IMG/VR virus record: IMGVR_UViG_3300036799_000069
Span: 1-43,916 of that record
Direction: 5' to 3' (one strand)
DNA: 43,916 nucleotides
Source: a virus
Shown: in pieces, positions 8,107-43,916 of the stretch
Layout: every line of letters begins with the position of its first letter
Position numbering within the stretch: the stretch's first letter is position 1
The notes under the pieces: model-generated
Databases searched by the model: none
What the model saw: only the letters and a program-made list of their open reading frames with translations
What the model was told of the DNA's origin: nothing
Made by a program: the position numbers and the translations under genes

Positions 8107-8159
8107 GGGCACACTGAACCCCCCTACCTATCGAATAGGTAGGGGGGTTCAGTGTGCCC
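8107..8159. terminator. Perfect 25-bp hairpin, bidirectional terminator
   Basis: Two 25-base arms (8107-8131 and 8135-8159) pair perfectly around the 3-base loop CGA. The stem contains a run of six C/G pairs and the outer GGGCACACTGAA segment. It lies where the rightward portal operon meets the leftward accessory block, so it can end transcripts from both sides. Actinobacterial terminators often lack a U tail. An arm this long and perfect is unusual for a phage. The stretch 8023-8106 holds no convincing gene. Confidence 0.8.
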
Positions 8160-17580: not shown

Positions 17581-17934
17581 GTGGCCGTCAACCTCGTTAG
17601 CGTCACCACGATCAACCGCGCGAAGCTCTATCAGGGGCAACCGTCCACTTCAGCGGCCACGCTTTATACGGTGCCAGCTTCCACGGACGTTAAGCTAGCT
17701 TCGATCATATTGTGCAACACGACCGCTGCCCCGGCAACCGTGACCCTGAACGTTGTGACCGCCGCGGGCACGGCCAGCGCAGCTAACCAGATCTTGGCTG
17801 CGCTATCAGTGAACGCTAACCAGGTTATTGTTCTGGACTTGCCGGTCTATATGTCCGCAGCCGACTTCATTTCCGGGCTACAGGGCACTTCCAGTGCGAT
17901 CACGGTCACTATCAGCGGCGAGACGTACGCATGA
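17581..17934 (+). CDS. Beta-rich virion protein, 117 aa
   Basis: GTG start 3 bases after the previous stop. The pattern LYTVPASTDVKLASIILCNT, ATVTLNVV and NANQVIVLDLPVYMSAADFI resembles the small beta-sandwich proteins found on many tailed phage particles (receptor- or fibre-associated, e.g. with VPAGT...VTSI.V.N). No enzymatic motif. Part of the cassette between capsid and connectors. Confidence 0.6.
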   Translation: MAVNLVSVTTINRAKLYQGQPSTSAATLYTVPASTDVKLASIILCNTTAAPATVTLNVVTAAGTASAANQILAALSVNANQVIVLDLPVYMSAADFISGLQGTSSAITVTISGETYA

Positions 17935-18683
17935 CGGGTCTCACTCGGTATCCGAGTGTCGCAGCGACTGCGGTTGCCACGGCACCGGGTTTGTCCGGGC
18001 TCACCCAAGGCCGCTTTGTCGGTGTCACCACGTACGGTGCGCCCGCAGCGGGGACGTTCTCGGTCGGTGACTATGTCGTTGACCAGAGCGGCAACATGTA
18101 CGTCTGCACTATTGCAGGCGCACCGGGCACGTGGGCTAACCCACAATCCCTGGGCAATGCCCTCACTGTTGGCGAGGAGACCGTCCACCGCGACTTCATG
18201 GCGTCGCAGGCGTCGGCCAGCACAACAGGCGTCTTCGGTCTCACGTTCTTTACCGCCCGCAAAACGGAGACCACCACACAGTTTCGCATCATCACGGGCT
18301 CCACCGCTGCCGCGGCCACGCCGACCCTCTGTCGCGTGGGGTTGTACTCCATCGCCTCCAACGGTGACGGGACGCTGGTCGCATCTATCGCTAACGACAC
18401 CACTTTGTTTGCCGCTACAGTTACTGCCTACGTCCGATCTTGGTCGGTGTCTTACGCTAAGACGGCCGGTACCCGGTACGCATTAGGTCTGATCGTAGTG
18501 AGTGGGGCAGCCACTCCTACGTTTATTGGGTATATCGCTAGCGGCACCGCGATGCCTGCTGAGTGGGCGGCGAGCGCCAGGCTGACGGGTCGCCTGACCG
18601 GTCAGTCGGATCTACCAGCCTCATTTACCGAGGCATCTCTACTGACTAGCGCGAACGCGCATTATGCCGCCATCCTCCCGTAG
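17931..18683 (+). CDS. Putative fibre or decoration protein, 250 aa
   Basis: The N-terminal third holds AGTFSVGDYVVDQSGNMYVC and GAPGTWANPQSLG, a motif typical of carbohydrate- or fibre-type modules in phage tail proteins. The C-terminal part (FRIITGSTAAAATPTLCRVG, IGYIASGTAMPAEWAASARL) looks like a beta-sandwich binding domain. It lies directly before the beta-helix spike gene and overlaps its upstream neighbour by 4 bases. Function by context only. Confidence 0.6.
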   Translation: MTGLTRYPSVAATAVATAPGLSGLTQGRFVGVTTYGAPAAGTFSVGDYVVDQSGNMYVCTIAGAPGTWANPQSLGNALTVGEETVHRDFMASQASASTTGVFGLTFFTARKTETTTQFRIITGSTAAAATPTLCRVGLYSIASNGDGTLVASIANDTTLFAATVTAYVRSWSVSYAKTAGTRYALGLIVVSGAATPTFIGYIASGTAMPAEWAASARLTGRLTGQSDLPASFTEASLLTSANAHYAAILP

Positions 18684-18714
18684 GTCGGTTCGCTACTTTA
18701 AGGTGGACTGACGG

Positions 18715-20694
18715 ATGACGTCTTTGACGGTAGGCGTCACCCGTCCAGTCCGACCGAGCATCGATTCCGGCGACGACACTGTGTCGCTGTGGGTGGTCTC
18801 CCGTGTGTCCACGGGTAGTGCGTCGGCTGTGTCTGCGGTTGCGACCGTGACGGCGCGCAGATCAGACAGCGGTGCGGTGTCCTCGCATCGCTCTATAACG
18901 GCGACGGTGACGGCCCCTCAGGTCATCTCCGAGTACCGCCCGGAGTATTACGGCGCGACGGGCGACGGACTGACTGATGACACAACGGCGTTCACTGCCA
19001 TGGCGGGGGCTATCAACGCTGTCGGAGTGTCGGCCGTTGTTACGCTCAAACCATACGCCGTGTACCGAGTTGGCAGGCAGACGTTAGCGGGGAACACGAC
19101 CAGCGGGGGGTCATATCTACCGGCTAGCATCTTCAGCATAACGGGGCTACCGGGCCTTATAGTAAACGGCAACGGTGCCACACTGAAATTCAACGACGGA
19201 TTGCGGGCTGGTACGTTCGACCCCGTAACCGGAGCAATCTACGGCACGGTCAACGTTGCCATCGCGTCGTCCGGCAATACGCAGTACGTCGCCGCGCCAG
19301 GTAACGTCATAGAGGTCTATAGCACCACGCGGGTGGTCATCCGTGATCTTATCGTGGACGGCAATGACGGTGCGTTTGTTAAGGGTGGCGGGATAGGCGT
19401 CGCCGGGACGACGGACTACTCAGTCGCCGGCACCGGCATTCTACTGCAAAAGGTACGTCGCCTAGCCCTGGAGAACGTGCACACAGTCCACATGCCGCTT
19501 GACGGTGTGTCATTCTCTGATAAGTCGACTACGGCCAACGCTGATGGCAACACTGTGGCTATCCACGGCAGTAGCTTCGACTACGCCGGACGCAACGGCC
19601 TTTGGCTCGGTAGCTGTAGCAACGTCCACGTGACCGCGAGCAAGCACAACCACGCGGGCCGGGGCAGCTTCACCACCGCACCCAGCATCGGCCTGGACCT
19701 GGAGGCGTACCCGCCGAACAATTCGCGCCGCGCCGTGTTCGAGGCGTGTGAGTTCGTGGACAACACGTCGCGGGCGTACAGCATGGCAGCCGGATGGGGG
19801 CATGTCTTATTCAAAGGCTGCGGTTTCCGGGCCAGCGGTACGCGCGGTGAGTTCGCCACACCAACCGGCCCGTGGGTGAGTCACGAAGACTGTTATATCA
19901 GTGGGTTTGTTAACACGCTGGGCACCGACGCGAATGACTCTGACAGCGAATTGAAACCACTGAACGGTACGGCGTTCAGGCGGTGCTTGTTCGAGGATGC
20001 CGACTACATCCAGCCCGTGGCCTTCCTTGACGGTGCCGGTATCCCAACGATGCAAGCGGAAGCCAAACAGAGCTACGGCACTCAAACCGGGACTGTGGCT
20101 ATAACGACGTCTGCTAGCACTACGGCTAATAGGTGGAAGTGTCAAGTCTTGTATGGTGGGTCCGTTGTTGAGACATACGATCCCCTCAATACCGTGGCTG
20201 GCGCCCTGGCGACGCTGAACGCGTCAGCGTATGCCACTTTCGCTGACCTGGGGTCTCCGTCGGCGAATCCAGTTGGCCAGCCGGCACCCGTGAGCGCCGT
20301 GACACTGCCTGTGAGGATACTCGATCGCAGCAACGGCGGTCTAGTCGCGAAGGCGTACGACAACGCCCTATTCGAGGATTGCACGTTTATTCCCCACGCT
20401 GTCACTGCTTTCAATATGTCAACTAATAGTGGCCTCGTCTCGCCCACAACTATGCGACGATGCACCGTAGTTGTTTACAACTCAATAGTAGCGGACAAGG
20501 CAAACCAGTCGATCATAAAGCAGACATACCTAGATGGCCTTAGATTCGTTGAGCCACCCGGACTGACCCCGCCAGTGAACGCGTGGTACGTCGGAAAAGA
20601 CGGCACCGTGACTTACTCACCGGACGGCGTCACCGTGGGGCCGTCGATACACTGGGGCGCGTGGAACGGTCCGACCGGGACGATCACCTCATAG
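18715..20694 (+). CDS. Right-handed beta-helix spike protein
   Basis: 659 residues. Residues 1-50 form an attachment-type N-terminus (GVTRPVRPSIDSGDDTVSLW) shared with the next gene. After residue 78 comes YYGATGDGLTDDTTAFTAMA, the standard entry of pectate-lyase-like beta-helix spikes, then repeated coils (VIEVYSTTRVVIRDLIVDGN, VAIHGSSFDYAGRNGLWLGS, ACEFVDNTSRAYSMAAGWGH). Such proteins bind or cleave surface polysaccharide. No catalytic residues can be fixed by eye. Its place right after capsid genes, not after the tape measure, is odd: it may be a head fibre. GC is lower than in its neighbours. Confidence 0.8.
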   Translation: MTSLTVGVTRPVRPSIDSGDDTVSLWVVSRVSTGSASAVSAVATVTARRSDSGAVSSHRSITATVTAPQVISEYRPEYYGATGDGLTDDTTAFTAMAGAINAVGVSAVVTLKPYAVYRVGRQTLAGNTTSGGSYLPASIFSITGLPGLIVNGNGATLKFNDGLRAGTFDPVTGAIYGTVNVAIASSGNTQYVAAPGNVIEVYSTTRVVIRDLIVDGNDGAFVKGGGIGVAGTTDYSVAGTGILLQKVRRLALENVHTVHMPLDGVSFSDKSTTANADGNTVAIHGSSFDYAGRNGLWLGSCSNVHVTASKHNHAGRGSFTTAPSIGLDLEAYPPNNSRRAVFEACEFVDNTSRAYSMAAGWGHVLFKGCGFRASGTRGEFATPTGPWVSHEDCYISGFVNTLGTDANDSDSELKPLNGTAFRRCLFEDADYIQPVAFLDGAGIPTMQAEAKQSYGTQTGTVAITTSASTTANRWKCQVLYGGSVVETYDPLNTVAGALATLNASAYATFADLGSPSANPVGQPAPVSAVTLPVRILDRSNGGLVAKAYDNALFEDCTFIPHAVTAFNMSTNSGLVSPTTMRRCTVVVYNSIVADKANQSIIKQTYLDGLRFVEPPGLTPPVNAWYVGKDGTVTYSPDGVTVGPSIHWGAWNGPTGTITS

Positions 20695-20711
20695 CTGAAT
20701 AGGGAGGTGAC

Positions 20712-21356
20712 ATGTCCTCGACTTTGATCGGCGTAGCGCGGCCGACCAGAATAGACCTAGACCCCGGCGACGACTACGTATCGCTATGGGTCGTTCCCGT
20801 CGCGACAACCGGTGTTGTGACGGGCACGATCACGGCCACAACCACGGTCACGGCGACCCGGTCAGACGCGGGCTCCGTAACAGCCACCACCACGGCCAGC
20901 GCCATCGTGACCGCCGTCCGGTCTGATTCAGCGTCGGTTACCGCGACGACAACAGCTAGCGCGGTCGTCAGTGCGATCCGGTCAGATTCAGCGACGGTCG
21001 CCGCTACCACCACGGCAACAGCTCTTGTCACCGCCAGCCGCTCAGATGTCGGCACAGTCAGCGCGACCACCACAGCCACCGCCGTTATCTCGGCTGCGGT
21101 GACCGGTGGTGGCGGTGGTGTCGTCGCAGCAACAACCACGGCGGTGGCAATGGTCACCGCCACCGCAACACCACCACCAGTCGCGGTGGGCTCGTGGTAC
21201 ACACTGATAGCGCTCAATGATGAGGCACGGCAGTACGTGGCCGAAGCCCCAGAGTTCGCGCGGCTAGCGTGCCCCAACGACGGCGAGCCGTACTCAACGG
21301 GGCCTGACGGACAGCTCTTCTGTCGATATGACGGCTATAGGCCGGGTACCTCCTAG
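20712..21356 (+). CDS. Thr-rich repeat protein with zinc-ribbon end
   Basis: 214 residues. It opens with the same module as the spike (GVARPTRIDLDPGDDYVSLWVV). Residues about 40-150 are five to six copies of a 20-residue repeat of the form TATTTASAIVTAVRSDSASV (60-bp DNA period, about 20835-21170), a fibrous beta-type composition. The C-terminal 60 residues are different: YTLIALNDEARQYVAEAPEF then RLACPNDGEPYSTGPDGQLF and CRYDG, a CPNDG zinc-ribbon found in many actinophage structural genes. Strong site GGGAGGTGA before ATG. Likely a particle-bound fibre related to the spike. Confidence 0.65.
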   Translation: MSSTLIGVARPTRIDLDPGDDYVSLWVVPVATTGVVTGTITATTTVTATRSDAGSVTATTTASAIVTAVRSDSASVTATTTASAVVSAIRSDSATVAATTTATALVTASRSDVGTVSATTTATAVISAAVTGGGGGVVAATTTAVAMVTATATPPPVAVGSWYTLIALNDEARQYVAEAPEFARLACPNDGEPYSTGPDGQLFCRYDGYRPGTS

Positions 21357-21364
21357 TGTTCGAC

Positions 21365-21415
21365 GGCACGTGTGGTAGTGTTCGGACTATTCCGATACTC
21401 CCGCAACGGTGCGGG
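21365..21415 (+). promoter_or_regulatory. Promoter/operator S8 and leader hairpin
   Basis: GGCACGTGTGG (21365-21375) directly abuts TAGTGT (21376-21381), a TAnnnT -10. Downstream, CCCGCAACGGTGCGGG (21400-21415) forms a 6-bp hairpin in the 5' leader of the next gene, before its ribosome binding site (TTGAGGAG). The gap 21357-21436 therefore looks like a dedicated promoter. Confidence 0.55.
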
Positions 21416-21436
21416 TAGACCACTTGAGGAGATCTC

Positions 21437-21862
21437 ATGGCTAAGACCAAGGCTGCCGGACAGTTCGATGACAGCTTCTATCAGAAGCTCGTTGAGCAGG
21501 CCGTGCCAGCGCCGCGTACCGCGTCGTCCCGTAATGACGTCCACGTGCCGAAGGTCATTGCTGACCAGGTCCAGCGCCACGCCGACAACCGTCAGGCGTT
21601 CCATGTGCCTGTGACAAACGAAGACGAGTTCGAGCACGTACGCGACCTGTACATCAGCGCCGCGTATCAGCTTGGTCACTCAGCGAACGTGAAAAAGCAC
21701 ACCGACAAAGACTCCGGTGCGTGGCTATCAACGCGGGTTTCGATCGGTGCGAAGCGCGGACGAGCGTCCAGTAACGGAACCGCCGCGGCCAGCGATAATG
21801 AGAGTACATCAGACGATGTACAAGCTGCCGCACACTCAGTGAGCGAAAATCGCGGCTGGTAA
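21437..21862 (+). CDS. Hypothetical basic/acidic protein, 141 aa
   Basis: Own promoter (S8) and a strong GAGGAG site. Starts MAKTKAAGQFDDSFYQKLVE. The middle (FHVPVTNEDEFEHVRDLYIS, AAYQLGHSANVKKHTDKD) is helical and charged, followed by a segment SGAWLSTRVSIGAKRGRA that could contact nucleic acid, and a Ser/Ala-rich disordered tail. Its separate control suggests expression apart from the virion genes. No family is recognised. Confidence 0.6.
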   Translation: MAKTKAAGQFDDSFYQKLVEQAVPAPRTASSRNDVHVPKVIADQVQRHADNRQAFHVPVTNEDEFEHVRDLYISAAYQLGHSANVKKHTDKDSGAWLSTRVSIGAKRGRASSNGTAAASDNESTSDDVQAAAHSVSENRGW

Positions 21863-21903
21863 TCGTTATTGCATCTGCGCGTGCATAATGCGATGGTGGG
21901 CTA

Positions 21904-22266
21904 GTGACACCAGAGGCGCAAGAGGTGAGTCGGGTCGTCCTACACGGCAAAGACGCCGTCAAGGGCGACCCGACGACCGTAGTAGCAATGAAATTCAGCG
22001 ACGGCACCTGGGGCCTACACGTCCCCACCGAATCGCACACAGTGCGGCTCCACTCCGACGCCGTCGCCGCGCTCGCCCAAGCCCTCGACCCCGCCGGCCC
22101 CGCCGCGGTGGTCCTCGCGTTGCAAGACAACGCCGGCCGCATGACGTTCCTGCACGCACCCGTCAGTCACGGCGCACAGTCAGTACTCCCGAGCGGCATC
22201 GTCAGCGCGTTGCAGACCGCGCTGCACGCGCTGCACAAAGCCCAACGGCTACTCGGGTCGCGCTAA
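21904..22266 (+). CDS. Hypothetical protein, 120 aa
   Basis: GTG start. The sequence has a beta-rich N-terminal half (VVLHGKDAVKGDPTTVVAMK, TWGLHVPTESHTVRLHSD) and a helical C-terminus (SGIVSALQTALHALHKAQRL). No motif is recognised. It is the last gene before the structured noncoding gap. Confidence 0.55.
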   Translation: MTPEAQEVSRVVLHGKDAVKGDPTTVVAMKFSDGTWGLHVPTESHTVRLHSDAVAALAQALDPAGPAAVVLALQDNAGRMTFLHAPVSHGAQSVLPSGIVSALQTALHALHKAQRLLGSR

Positions 22267-22536
22267 GCTGACCCTGGGCACAGCCGCTGCCCGCCAGCCC
22301 CCACCGTGTCCCCCCGACCGGTGGGGGCGCCCCTATATATAAGGTCACGCTGGCAGGCTTTGTCGCGCCACCAAGCTCCACTCCTCGGCTTGGTGTCCTG
22401 CGCGACCGGCCCGCCGACTGGTGGCGTCTATTTGGCTCCTGGCGCCACCAGTCCCTCCCGTAGCATGTGTGGCAGCGGCCAGCGCGTCCGCCTCCGTAGC
22501 CCAGGTACGCAGGTGGAAACGGCGCCCGCTGGTCGC

Positions 22537-22577
22537 CTAACGGCCCCCGCTGTAGTCCATGCACCGGGGGCCGTTAG
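22537..22577. terminator. Strong 13-bp GC-rich hairpin
   Basis: CTAACGGCCCCCG (22537-22549) pairs perfectly with CGGGGGCCGTTAG (22565-22577) around a 15-base loop, followed by TCT. This is the strongest of the four hairpins in the gap and the most terminator-like. It sits just before the operator and start of the connector-tail operon. Confidence 0.6.
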
Positions 22578-22601
22578 TCTGCCCGCACCCGATTACCCAC
22601 C

Positions 22602-22619
22602 GTGACACACGTGTGTCAC
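22602..22619. promoter_or_regulatory. Operator S9, perfect 18-bp palindrome
   Basis: GTGACACACGTGTGTCAC is a perfect 18-bp palindrome, the longest and most symmetric member of the ACACGTGT site family. It lies 30 bases before the start of the connector gene and 25 bases after a terminator-like hairpin. It may control the whole tail operon. Confidence 0.65.
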
Positions 22620-22648
22620 ACGGCCACCTGAAAGCGTGTGGTCAGGGA

Positions 22649-23686
22649 ATGGTTGCCTACGCAACACGCCGGCGTGTCCAACTCGCCATGGACACCAAGA
22701 CGACCGCGCGCAACGCCGCCCAGATCGACGACGCTCTCGAGAGCGCGTCCCGCGAGGTCGACGGGCTCTGCAACCGGGTGTTCTACCCCACCACCCGCAC
22801 CCAGACGTGGGATTACCCACTCGCTGACCGCTCCCGTCCCTGGCGTTTGTGGCTCAACGACGACGAACTGATCTCCGTCAGCTCCCTGGTCACCGGGGCC
22901 GTCACCGTCGCCGCAAGTGACATCCTCCTGCGTCCCGACCACGGGCCCCCGTTTAACTCCATTGAGATCCGCCGCTCCACTATCGGGGCCTACCAGTCGT
23001 CCACAGACCTGCAACGCGCCATCACAGCGGTGGGTGTGTTCGGGTACGACCTGGTCGAAGCGGCGGCGGGGACGCTGGCGAGCTCGTGCACGTCGGGTGC
23101 GACCACGGTCACCGTGTCGGACTCCAGTGTGATCGGGCCGGGGTCGTTGCTGCGGGTCGGCACGGAACGGGTGGTGTGCACCGAAGCGTCCATGGTGGCA
23201 ACGGCCGCAACGGTGGCAGCACCGGGCCTGACCGCGACCGCGGGGAACGTCACGGTGCCATTGTCGGGGGCGGGCCCGGTGGTCGGTGAGGTGATCCTGG
23301 TCGACAGTGAGCGGATGCTGGCCGTGGACCTGGTCGGCACGAACCTCACGGTGCGCCGCGCGTGGGATGGCAGCGTGCTGGCCGCGCATTCAGCCGGTGC
23401 GGTGATCAACGCGTTGCGGCAGCTCACGGTGACCCGCGGTGCGCTGGGGACGTCAGCGGCGGCTCACAGCTCCGCTGACGTAGTGGTCCGGCACGTGTTC
23501 CCCGGTGGGATCGTGAACCTCACGGTGGCCCTGGCCGTAGTCGAGCTGGGCAGCGAGTCCACGGGATACACCATTGACCGGCGCTCGGAGCAGTCACCTC
23601 AACTCGCGGCCACTAACGCACTCAGTCAGCTAATCGACCGAGTCACGACGCAATATGGCCGGAAGAATAGGATGCGTGCAGTATGA
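22649..23686 (+). CDS. Head-tail connector/adaptor protein
   Basis: 345 residues. The start MVAYATRRRVQLAMDTKTTA is chosen by length; a second ATG at 22688 (MDTKTTARNAAQ) is also possible and has a palindrome ACACGCCGGCGTGT just upstream. DTKTTARNAAQIDDALESAS and REVDGLCNRVFYPTTRTQTW match the N-terminal helices of gp6-like adaptors (bundle that docks under the portal). A long beta-rich insertion with Val/Thr/Ala strands follows (residues about 140-300), then the C-terminal SPQLAATNALSQLIDRVTTQ. The insertion makes it much longer than a usual adaptor (about 110 residues), so it may also carry a decoration-like or Ig-type region. Confidence 0.7.
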   Translation: MVAYATRRRVQLAMDTKTTARNAAQIDDALESASREVDGLCNRVFYPTTRTQTWDYPLADRSRPWRLWLNDDELISVSSLVTGAVTVAASDILLRPDHGPPFNSIEIRRSTIGAYQSSTDLQRAITAVGVFGYDLVEAAAGTLASSCTSGATTVTVSDSSVIGPGSLLRVGTERVVCTEASMVATAATVAAPGLTATAGNVTVPLSGAGPVVGEVILVDSERMLAVDLVGTNLTVRRAWDGSVLAAHSAGAVINALRQLTVTRGALGTSAAAHSSADVVVRHVFPGGIVNLTVALAVVELGSESTGYTIDRRSEQSPQLAATNALSQLIDRVTTQYGRKNRMRAV

Positions 23687-35804: not shown

Positions 35805-36235
35805 GGTGACACGATGCCGCGCCGGATAATGCCGATGTCTCTACTGACCTGACACGAACGCACAAAGCACGCGGCGGCCAGTGACAAGAGCAGAGCGGAG
35901 CCCGTGAGGGAGGGCCACCCGGCGAAGGCGAAGCTGGACACACTGAAAGACGCGCACAAGCCCGCGAGGATGAGCAGCCCGGACCGCTCTAACTGGAGAC
36001 CGACCGCGCTGATGGCCAGCAGGCCAGTGAGAGTCAGGGCACCACCAACCAGGAGGCCCGCGTACCAGGCGAGCTGAGCGGCGGCGGGGAACGCCGCCAC
36101 GATCGACCGGGCGCGGACAGCGGGCACGATCAGGCCGGCGACACCGACCAGGATCATCGCCGCGCACAGGTACGCCTCGAACAGGTGGCGGGCGACGCGT
36201 GACCGAGCCCCTGGCAGCGGCGGGGGCTCGGTCAC
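35801..36235 (-). CDS. Four-helix membrane protein, 144 aa
   Basis: GTG start. After a short polar N-terminus, four transmembrane helices are visible: LCAAMILVGVAGLIVPAV, AGLLVGGALTLTGLLAISAV, SGLLILAGLCASFSVSSFAF and GSALLLSLAAACFVRSC. No enzyme motif. The position just upstream of the coiled-coil and endolysin genes suggests a role in lysis or membrane remodelling (inference). Small tetraspan proteins like this are often annotated as holins in actinophages. Confidence 0.65.
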   Translation of the reverse strand: MTEPPPLPGARSRVARHLFEAYLCAAMILVGVAGLIVPAVRARSIVAAFPAAAQLAWYAGLLVGGALTLTGLLAISAVGLQLERSGLLILAGLCASFSVSSFAFAGWPSLTGSALLLSLAAACFVRSCQVSRDIGIIRRGIVSP

Positions 36236-36244
36236 CGCGGAAGC

Positions 36245-36442
36245 CTAGGGCACCCTGGGTGGGGCCGGTGTCGGCGGCAACCGGTCGGTGTTGACCTGCA
36301 CGTCCAGGCACACGACGATGGCCGGGTCGGCGGGTGGTCGCGGGCCTACGACGCACACCGGGCCGGTGGCGGCGCTGGCCGGGATGGCGGTGAGCAGGGC
36401 GAGCGAGGCGGCAGCGGCGGCGATCGTGAGAGTCTTGCGCAT
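36245..36442 (-). CDS. Secreted protein with signal peptide, 65 aa
   Basis: MRKTLTIAAAAASLALLTAI and PASAA form a typical Sec signal peptide with a cleavage site after ASA (around residue 24). The mature part (TGPVCVVGPRPPADPAIVVC) has two Cys that could form a disulphide bond, then a Pro-rich tail. It would be exported to the cell surface or medium. A secreted micro-protein in a phage points to modification of the host envelope or exclusion. No family is recognised. Confidence 0.65.
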   Translation of the reverse strand: MRKTLTIAAAAASLALLTAIPASAATGPVCVVGPRPPADPAIVVCLDVQVNTDRLPPTPAPPRVP

Positions 36443-36479
36443 GGTGCGGTAACGAGCCGGTGGTTACTGGCGGTGCGGT

Positions 36480-36920
36480 CTACCAGTCACCGCTGACGCC
36501 CACGGGCCAGCCATCGGCCGGCGGCGTGGTGGGTGGGTTCGGGCAGAACCCAGGCGTGTCCCCGCACAGGACCATGGTCACGGGCCGGAGCTTGCCGGCG
36601 GGCAGGTCGAGCTGTTGCGACGGGGCGTGGGTGCCCGGTGGGTACAGCGTCGCCGTCACCGTGACCCGGGCCTGTGGTTGGGGCGTGGGGAAACCCTGGT
36701 TGATCCGCTGCGACATGACCACGGCCAGCGCGACCAGGAGGAGGAGCGCGGCCACCACGATGGCCACGGCGGTCTCAGTGTCACGGCGGGCGGTGCTGCG
36801 GGCACGTCGATCCCGTGGGGCGGTGATGTGTTCGTGGATGTTCAGGGCGCGCATGGATGCGGTGCGGGCGATGCTTGACAGGATGGGGCCGCCGCGTTCC
36901 CGGTGTTGTCCGGTGCTCAT
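36480..36920 (-). CDS. Single-pass membrane protein with exported domain, 146 aa
   Basis: A basic cytoplasmic N-terminus (RDRRARSTARRDTE) precedes one transmembrane helix (residues about 51-68, AVAIVVAALLLLVALAVV). An outside domain follows (RVTVTATLYPPGTHAPSQQL, VTMVLCGDTPGFCPNPPTTP) with two Cys 7 residues apart. Together with the neighbouring secreted gene it looks like an envelope-directed pair. Its promoter lies in the gap it shares with the RHH gene, next to site S11. Confidence 0.6.
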   Translation of the reverse strand: MSTGQHRERGGPILSSIARTASMRALNIHEHITAPRDRRARSTARRDTETAVAIVVAALLLLVALAVVMSQRINQGFPTPQPQARVTVTATLYPPGTHAPSQQLDLPAGKLRPVTMVLCGDTPGFCPNPPTTPPADGWPVGVSGDW

Positions 36921-36998
36921 GATTTGCCTAACGTCGCTGCGTGCGGGTGGTGACGGGTGATCTTAGCGTGGTCTTAGGGTGGGCTGGGCCTACCCCTT

Positions 36999-37019
36999 GC
37001 CACACGTGCATGGTAGCAT
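36999..37019 (+). promoter_or_regulatory. Leaderless promoter with operator S11
   Basis: GCCACACGTGCATGG (36999-37013) runs directly into TAGCAT (37014-37019), and ATG follows after 6 bases (37026). Read on the other strand the same site (TGTGGCAAGG) resembles site S2, so it may also serve the leftward gene starting at 36920. TGCATGCATGCA (37016-37027 region) is a small additional palindrome. Confidence 0.55.
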
Positions 37020-43770: not shown

Positions 43771-43916
43771 AGGGGGGACAGGGGGGACAGTGTCCCCCCC
43801 TACTCGCGAAAATCCGTGACCGTCAAGTCAGGATTGACCAGGTAGAGAGAAATTGTTTGTTTCGCGTTATGAGCTACTTCGCAAGGGGGGGGGAGATGTC
43901 CCCCCTTGTCCCCCCT
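43771..43916. repeat. Right copy of the 146-bp terminal direct repeat
   Basis: Matches 1-146 except base 43790 (G against C at base 20). It starts 10 bases after the stop of the replication gene and carries GGGGGGACA at 43772-43780 and 43781-43789, and TGTCCCCCC at 43791-43799, 43897-43905 and 43907-43915. With the left end it means one iteron region present once per circular unit. Confidence 0.9.

Follow-up and report, generated by a model that had tools for sequence, protein, structure and literature searches.

The 382-base gap between a 120-codon gene and the head-tail adaptor gene of this virus is read here, with a probability of roughly 0.7, as an untranslated RNA region in two parts, a leader and an upstream hairpin array, and with the same probability the last ~55–60 bases are predicted to fold as a three-way junction (P1-P2-P3) on the adaptor start codon. 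The window, i.e., the whole stretch of DNA analysed, covers a viral record of 43.9 kb that carries a terminal repeat of 146 bases, and within its structural module (13.3–34.4 kb) the gap, which begins after the stop codon at 22266 and ends before the ATG at 22649 (22267–22648), is the longest given by a simple gene finder. It holds five perfect inverted repeats with arms of 8–13 bases (perfect arms of at least 8 and loops of at most 16 were counted), located at 22297–22328 (10 bp), 22369–22395 (8 bp), 22416–22453 (11 bp), 22537–22577 (13 bp), and 22602–22619 (9+9). The whole window has 33 such repeats, with a mean of 0.24 per 382 bases, which places the gap at 20 times the genome average, and none of 500 dinucleotide shuffles reached five. 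The RNA of the gap folds with z-scores of −8.0 (plus strand) and −5.6 (minus strand) against shuffles, and of −2.3 and −2.8, within the top few per cent, when 382-base windows from the rest of this GC-rich genome are the reference; because these values are extreme in the first comparison and modest in the second, folding energy alone is weak evidence, and what proves the feature is that perfect repeats are clustered there and that the cluster is conserved. There is no conserved reading frame in the gap, its frames being interrupted by indels of one or two bases and by stops when the window is compared with its close relative, and ARAGORN matched no tRNA or tmRNA in a scan of the window. An earlier sequence-only reading had called the gap exceptional and described a run of stems of 8–13 bp. 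Both statements hold, given the length of the gap, its lack of coding potential and its conservation, and the count of repeats that shuffles never attained; what that reading missed is that the last ~60 bases would form a single three-way junction that includes the start codon.

Only one close relative was found in IMG/VR (locus L003, with an adaptor 72% identical), and it retains the complete gap. The gene upstream (21904–22266, plus strand, 120 aa, no family match) is also present there, with 88% amino acid identity and changes in third codon positions. All hairpins of the gap are given here on the plus strand. Hairpin 0 (22276–22292, GGGCA/TGCCC) differs in sequence in L003, where a hairpin is nevertheless retained (GTGGG/CCCAC), and hairpin 1 (22297–22328), with a stem of 10 bp and the loop TGTCCCCCCGAC, is 97% identical. 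An AT-rich box, CTATATATAAGGT, follows at 22333–22345 and is retained as well. Hairpin 2 (22352–22415, loop CTCCACTCCTCGG) is 89% identical and its stem is preserved by paired changes, two G-C pairs having become A-T pairs (pairs 142–176 and 150–164 of the consensus fold), while hairpin 3 (22416–22453), with 11 perfect bp, or 13 with G-U, is 93% identical, and its 5′ arm has a possible alternative partner in a copy of GCGCCACCA within hairpin 2. Hairpin 4 (22471–22532) is imperfect and poorly conserved (75%). Hairpin 5 (22537–22577), a GC-rich, terminator-like stem of 13 perfect bp without a T-run, is 69% identical and also keeps its stem, through three compensatory pairs. The lack of stem conservation that had been named as grounds for abandoning a structured element is thus the opposite of what the relative displays, and the proposal of a structured noncoding RNA is supported by this conservation, by the missing reading frame, and by the likeness to leaders that precede the same gene in many phages. 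As judged from the sequences compared, the ~300 upstream bases are a lineage-specific, conserved hairpin array, in which hairpins 0–3 probably form a separate structured RNA; since their loops are conserved besides their stems, hairpins 1–3 suggest a molecule that pairs with a second RNA or is itself a target of recognition. Fibre/spike-like genes (17931–22266, including a beta-helix protein at 18715–20694) lie between the head and connector genes, unlike in the Streptomyces phage Dagobah, and the gap therefore marks, in addition, a boundary of an inserted cassette.

We regard as possible, with the balance leaning against it, a reading in which the gap carries tandem transcription terminators or an attenuator to insulate the tail operon from the spike/fibre-like genes that are inserted upstream (17.9–22.3 kb). 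The preservation of the 13-bp GC-rich stem of hairpin 5 through compensatory change, the comparably strong hairpin that stands before the leader in L003, L008, L014, and L023, and the two possible partners of the 5′ arm of hairpin 3 all speak in its favor. However, an intrinsic terminator consists of a GC-rich stem and then a T-run, and hairpin 5 is followed by TCTGCCCG; a T-run comes after no stem of the gap, a terminator scan returned nothing convincing there, most leader-bearing relatives have no strong upstream hairpin, and the 97–100% conserved loops and the last 60 bases would be left unexplained. A strong terminator before the leader was considered as a general rule and rejected, because most relatives are without one. 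The earlier suggestion of a tandem terminator/attenuator set accordingly shrinks to hairpin 5 at best, which is conserved in stem and variable in sequence, and which lacks the T-run. Within a two-part RNA region, hairpin 5 would probably end or process incoming transcripts. Elsewhere in the window, a perfect 25-bp hairpin with a 3-nt loop (8107–8159) separates the portal module (plus strand) from a reversed cassette (minus strand) and is a probable bidirectional terminator.

The strongest conservation lies at the 3′ end of the gap. In 6.4 kb compared between the window and L003, the longest identical run is of 81 bases (22567–22647), the runner-up being of 34, and the last 62 bases are 98% identical, against 74% in the adaptor gene and about 60% at third codon positions. 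The consensus fold of the two sequences places the leader at 22596–22647 on the plus strand, with P1 formed by CCC (22596–22598) and GGG (22645–22647), P2 by an 18-bp palindrome (22602–22619, GTGACAC-ACGT-GTGTCAC, 7 bp, ending 2 nt before P3), and P3 by a hairpin of 6 bp (22622–22643, GGCCAC-CTGAAAGCGT-GTGGTC), whose apical loop CTGAAAGCGT carries GAAAGC at 22630–22635. The ATG comes directly after P1, and the 3′ strand of P1 takes part in AGGG, a weak Shine-Dalgarno sequence (22644–22651 with the start codon at 22649, a start that is conserved with relatives). The gene that begins there (22649–23686, plus strand) encodes the head-tail adaptor, or connector, of 345 aa (phrog_442, E 1.7e-8), 38% identical to QMP84394.1 of Dagobah, which was its only homologue among cultured phages; plasmids gave none. 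At the DNA level, the window resembled none of 50,697 phage genomes, nearly or distantly. No Rfam 15 family reached its gathering score in the window or in 10 relatives, and sub-threshold matches, to mir-21 and the like, were set aside as chance hairpin matches.

Some fifty other soil phages (more than 50 actinophage contigs) have a leader of this design ahead of the head-tail adaptor gene. Distant adaptor homologues were read 5′ of the gene at 28, 20 and 80 loci, the 20 being prophage loci that a 22-sequence alignment recovered in a genome scan where a 3-sequence one had recovered none. About 35 loci were found to share an element before the start, made of a C-rich strand, a hairpin, a hairpin with a GAAAGC loop, and the start itself, and these leaders, folded individually, give a three-way junction. 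In most of them the start site lies in P1 or next to it; the P2 hairpin varies, and the apical loop of P3 is NGAAAGCR, with a nearly invariant GAAAGC. Across 18 loci aligned by hand, P1, P2, and P3 covary, including the outer P1 bases at the start codon, P1 appearing as CCC/GGG, CTCA/TGAG, CTCC/GGAG, GCCAA/TTGGC, or CCCTG/CAGGG. A covariance model grown from six seeds found 20 places in 100 loci (769 kb), all on the gene strand and directly 5′ of the adaptor or of an ORF inserted there, and none elsewhere. An alignment of 60 matches had a covariation of 0.511, against 0.130 when shuffled (0/500), and sliding the partners lowered covariation to 0.09 or less and paired cells from 94% to at most 57%. 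Two further searches made no use of the protein. A DNA pattern run over 2.9 million viral contigs of IMG/VR had an adaptor homologue downstream in 42 of 50 matches; of the remaining eight, L154, L166, and L180 are at contig ends, and L133 and L135 are chance-like. The model, run over 396 actinobacterial genomes, produced a single match, upstream of an adaptor homologue. On these comparisons the wider leader family is well supported. It has no match in Rfam 15, and no earlier description was met in a literature search (the 224-motif survey, 10.1093/nar/gkx699, being outside its scope).

Among 46 leaders, the start codon is inside P1 in 26 and no more than 12 bases after P1 in 19, and in several relatives the AGG of P1 is too near the AUG for an optimal Shine-Dalgarno sequence. 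Many adaptor homologues have no leader and instead an ordinary overlapping GAGGAGGTGA site. ORFs inserted between leader and adaptor encode HNH endonucleases in six of the seven tested (L010, L013, L092, L138, L141, L162; PHROGs E 1e-30 to 1e-41) and begin at the leader's own start codon, for which reason the leader seems to control whatever follows it and to be a recurrent insertion site. Directly 5′ of the leader, many relatives carry a block, ACAACTNNATA, about 45–60 nt before GAAAGC, which is absent from the window; its other matches, if it is taken as a general promoter, are mostly within coding sequence. Leaders of the Dagobah type, as in L004 (5920–6000), L015, L016, L018, L022, and L023, have a P2 with a 5-bp stem and a canonical tRNA T-loop (TTCGATT or TTAGATC).

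The copy in the window appears to be a divergent variant of this family by its anatomy and its place, short of a proven member. It lies directly upstream of the adaptor start on the adaptor's strand (as established by phrog_442 and by alignment), its P3 has a 6-bp stem and a GAAAGCR-bearing apical loop within the 9–11 nt of the family, and a hairpin, P2, is immediately 5′ of P3. It is also the only junction-like site in the 43.9 kb, with GAAAGC 19 nt before the ATG at 22649; by estimate, roughly every 75 kb of strand would hold one such site by accident, which puts the probability of a random occurrence inside the relevant ~30 bases at about 4e-4. Of the 23 viral contigs in which its P3 pattern is present, only L003 (at 28 bases) and L095 (at 35 bases) have the adaptor downstream. 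Its P1, of 3 bp beside the ATG, is invariant between window and L003, so that covariation of P1 is seen in the wider family only. The family covariance model gave the window copy 3.7 bits (22596–22652), which is not above noise; it also misses the Dagobah-type leaders and thus covers only some subtypes, so that the case for the window copy as a member depends on where it lies, on its anatomy, and on its P3 loop.

The palindrome that we assign to P2 is the site that had been proposed as the best operator of the genome, and it could control the tail operon as the binding site of a repressor or activator of the phage, with the RNA pairing incidental, although we find this unlikely. It is perfect, spacer-free, 18 bp long, and identical in L003, and the site at 22603 fits a half-site family, TGMCACAYGTGTGKCA, present at 2447, 3093, and 9541 beside promoter-like sequences. 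However, the half-site consensus was built after the site had been seen, and each half is one base off the other three; no −35/−10 pair lies beside the palindrome, relatives have non-palindromic covarying hairpins at its position, and an operator would explain neither P1 nor P3 nor GAAAGC. The palindrome is single-copy in the window, and a search of IMG/VR for it as a multi-copy operator returned L003 only. What stands of the earlier proposal is therefore the palindrome itself, which, given the non-palindromic hairpins of the relatives, is better read as P2 of the leader; a double role, as P2 and DNA operator, is possible. At 2447, 3093, and 9541, the window has palindromes around TGCCACAYGTGTGGCA that overlap TTGACT/TTGACA-like sequences and are probable repressor operators of this phage.

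The adaptor leader, in turn, likely serves to control translation. Closure of P1 would occlude the ribosome-binding and start site, and the conserved GAAAGC loop of P3 could be the recognition element, the junction and the loop being recognised by a ligand or by a protein, either one of the virion or an RNA-binding protein of the host; alternatively, the stability of P1 might by itself set the amount of adaptor. About a dozen adaptors are needed per hundreds of capsid and tail subunits, and a leader of this kind would set adaptor quantity in an operon that also makes those subunits, a low-copy connector among high-copy proteins being a natural target for such a brake. Its sequence and place suggest that the leader is a previously undescribed RNA element that works as a switch or brake in virus assembly. 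We put forward tentatively, at somewhat less than even odds, the fuller proposal of a new actinophage cis riboregulator, whose junction and GAAAGC loop would sense a virion protein, a host factor, or a ligand, gate the adaptor, and couple head and tail assembly, and which would here be fused to the hairpin array as a second, possibly trans-acting RNA. How tailed phages adjust the dosage of virion proteins encoded in a single long late operon is for the most part unexplained, and a conserved, covarying RNA that accompanies the same connector gene across dozens of phages offers a concrete candidate mechanism.

Known phage translational operators, to which a virion or replication protein binds, include the coat-protein hairpin of MS2 and the gp32 and RegA sites of T4. 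The leader resembles them as an RNA structure over a phage start site and in the presumed translational control of a protein required in fixed amount, but they consist of single hairpins or pseudoknots and belong to other genes, whereas the leader is a three-way junction with a GAAAGC loop on the adaptor gene. With ribosomal-protein leaders and translational riboswitches, cis-regulatory classes of Rfam, it shares a small, conserved and covarying structure at the 5′ end, in which the Shine-Dalgarno sequence and the start codon are contained or which they adjoin; unlike them, it has no Rfam 15 match and the gene that it would control is a phage structural one. Dagobah (MT711977) offers a further parallel. 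Its homologous phrog_442 adaptor gene is preceded, at 28 bases from the start codon, by such a leader, in which P2 bears a loop resembling the tRNA T-loop and P3 carries CCGAAAGCAA. The proteins, however, are 38% identical, and Dagobah is without hairpins 0–5 and the 300-base array. As a cultured Streptomyces phage that carries a variant of the leader, it makes the mechanism testable.

It is improbable that hairpins 0–3 are a trans-acting small RNA like the actinobacterial 6C RNA, with C-rich loops that pair with G-rich Shine-Dalgarno regions. 6C RNA is defined by two stem-loops, whose loops contain about six C each (PMC4046766). Hairpin 1, with its GC-rich stem and six-C loop, weakly resembles the second of them, hairpin 0 supplies the first stem of the match, the virus is a presumed actinophage, the C-rich loops TGTCCCCCCGAC and CTCCACTCCTCGG are conserved in L003, and a weak Rfam match falls at the same place in both phages (20.0 and 21.0 bits). 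Those scores, however, are far below the gathering score of 47 bits (RF01066), the gap has one six-C loop (loop 1) against two in 6C, and the array lies inside a phage late operon. No promoter for hairpins 0–3 was identified.

The reading of the gap as a replication origin or second iteron-binding locus can be dismissed as very improbable, for the loop of hairpin 1 does begin with the iteron sequence TGTCCCCCC, as had been noticed, and an AT-rich box and hairpins are at hand, but the gap has a single copy, at a near-chance frequency (solitary copies at 22307 and 37448, 0.66 expected), and no GC-skew switch, and the iteron array sits in the terminal repeat beside the primase/polymerase gene. 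Clear repetition of the 9-mer is confined to the terminal repeat of 146 bases, where direct and inverted copies (1–155 and 43772–43916) make a candidate origin or regulatory region. Finally, a minus-strand gene block at 36001–37000 has a GC content of 71.5%, against about 62% elsewhere in the window.
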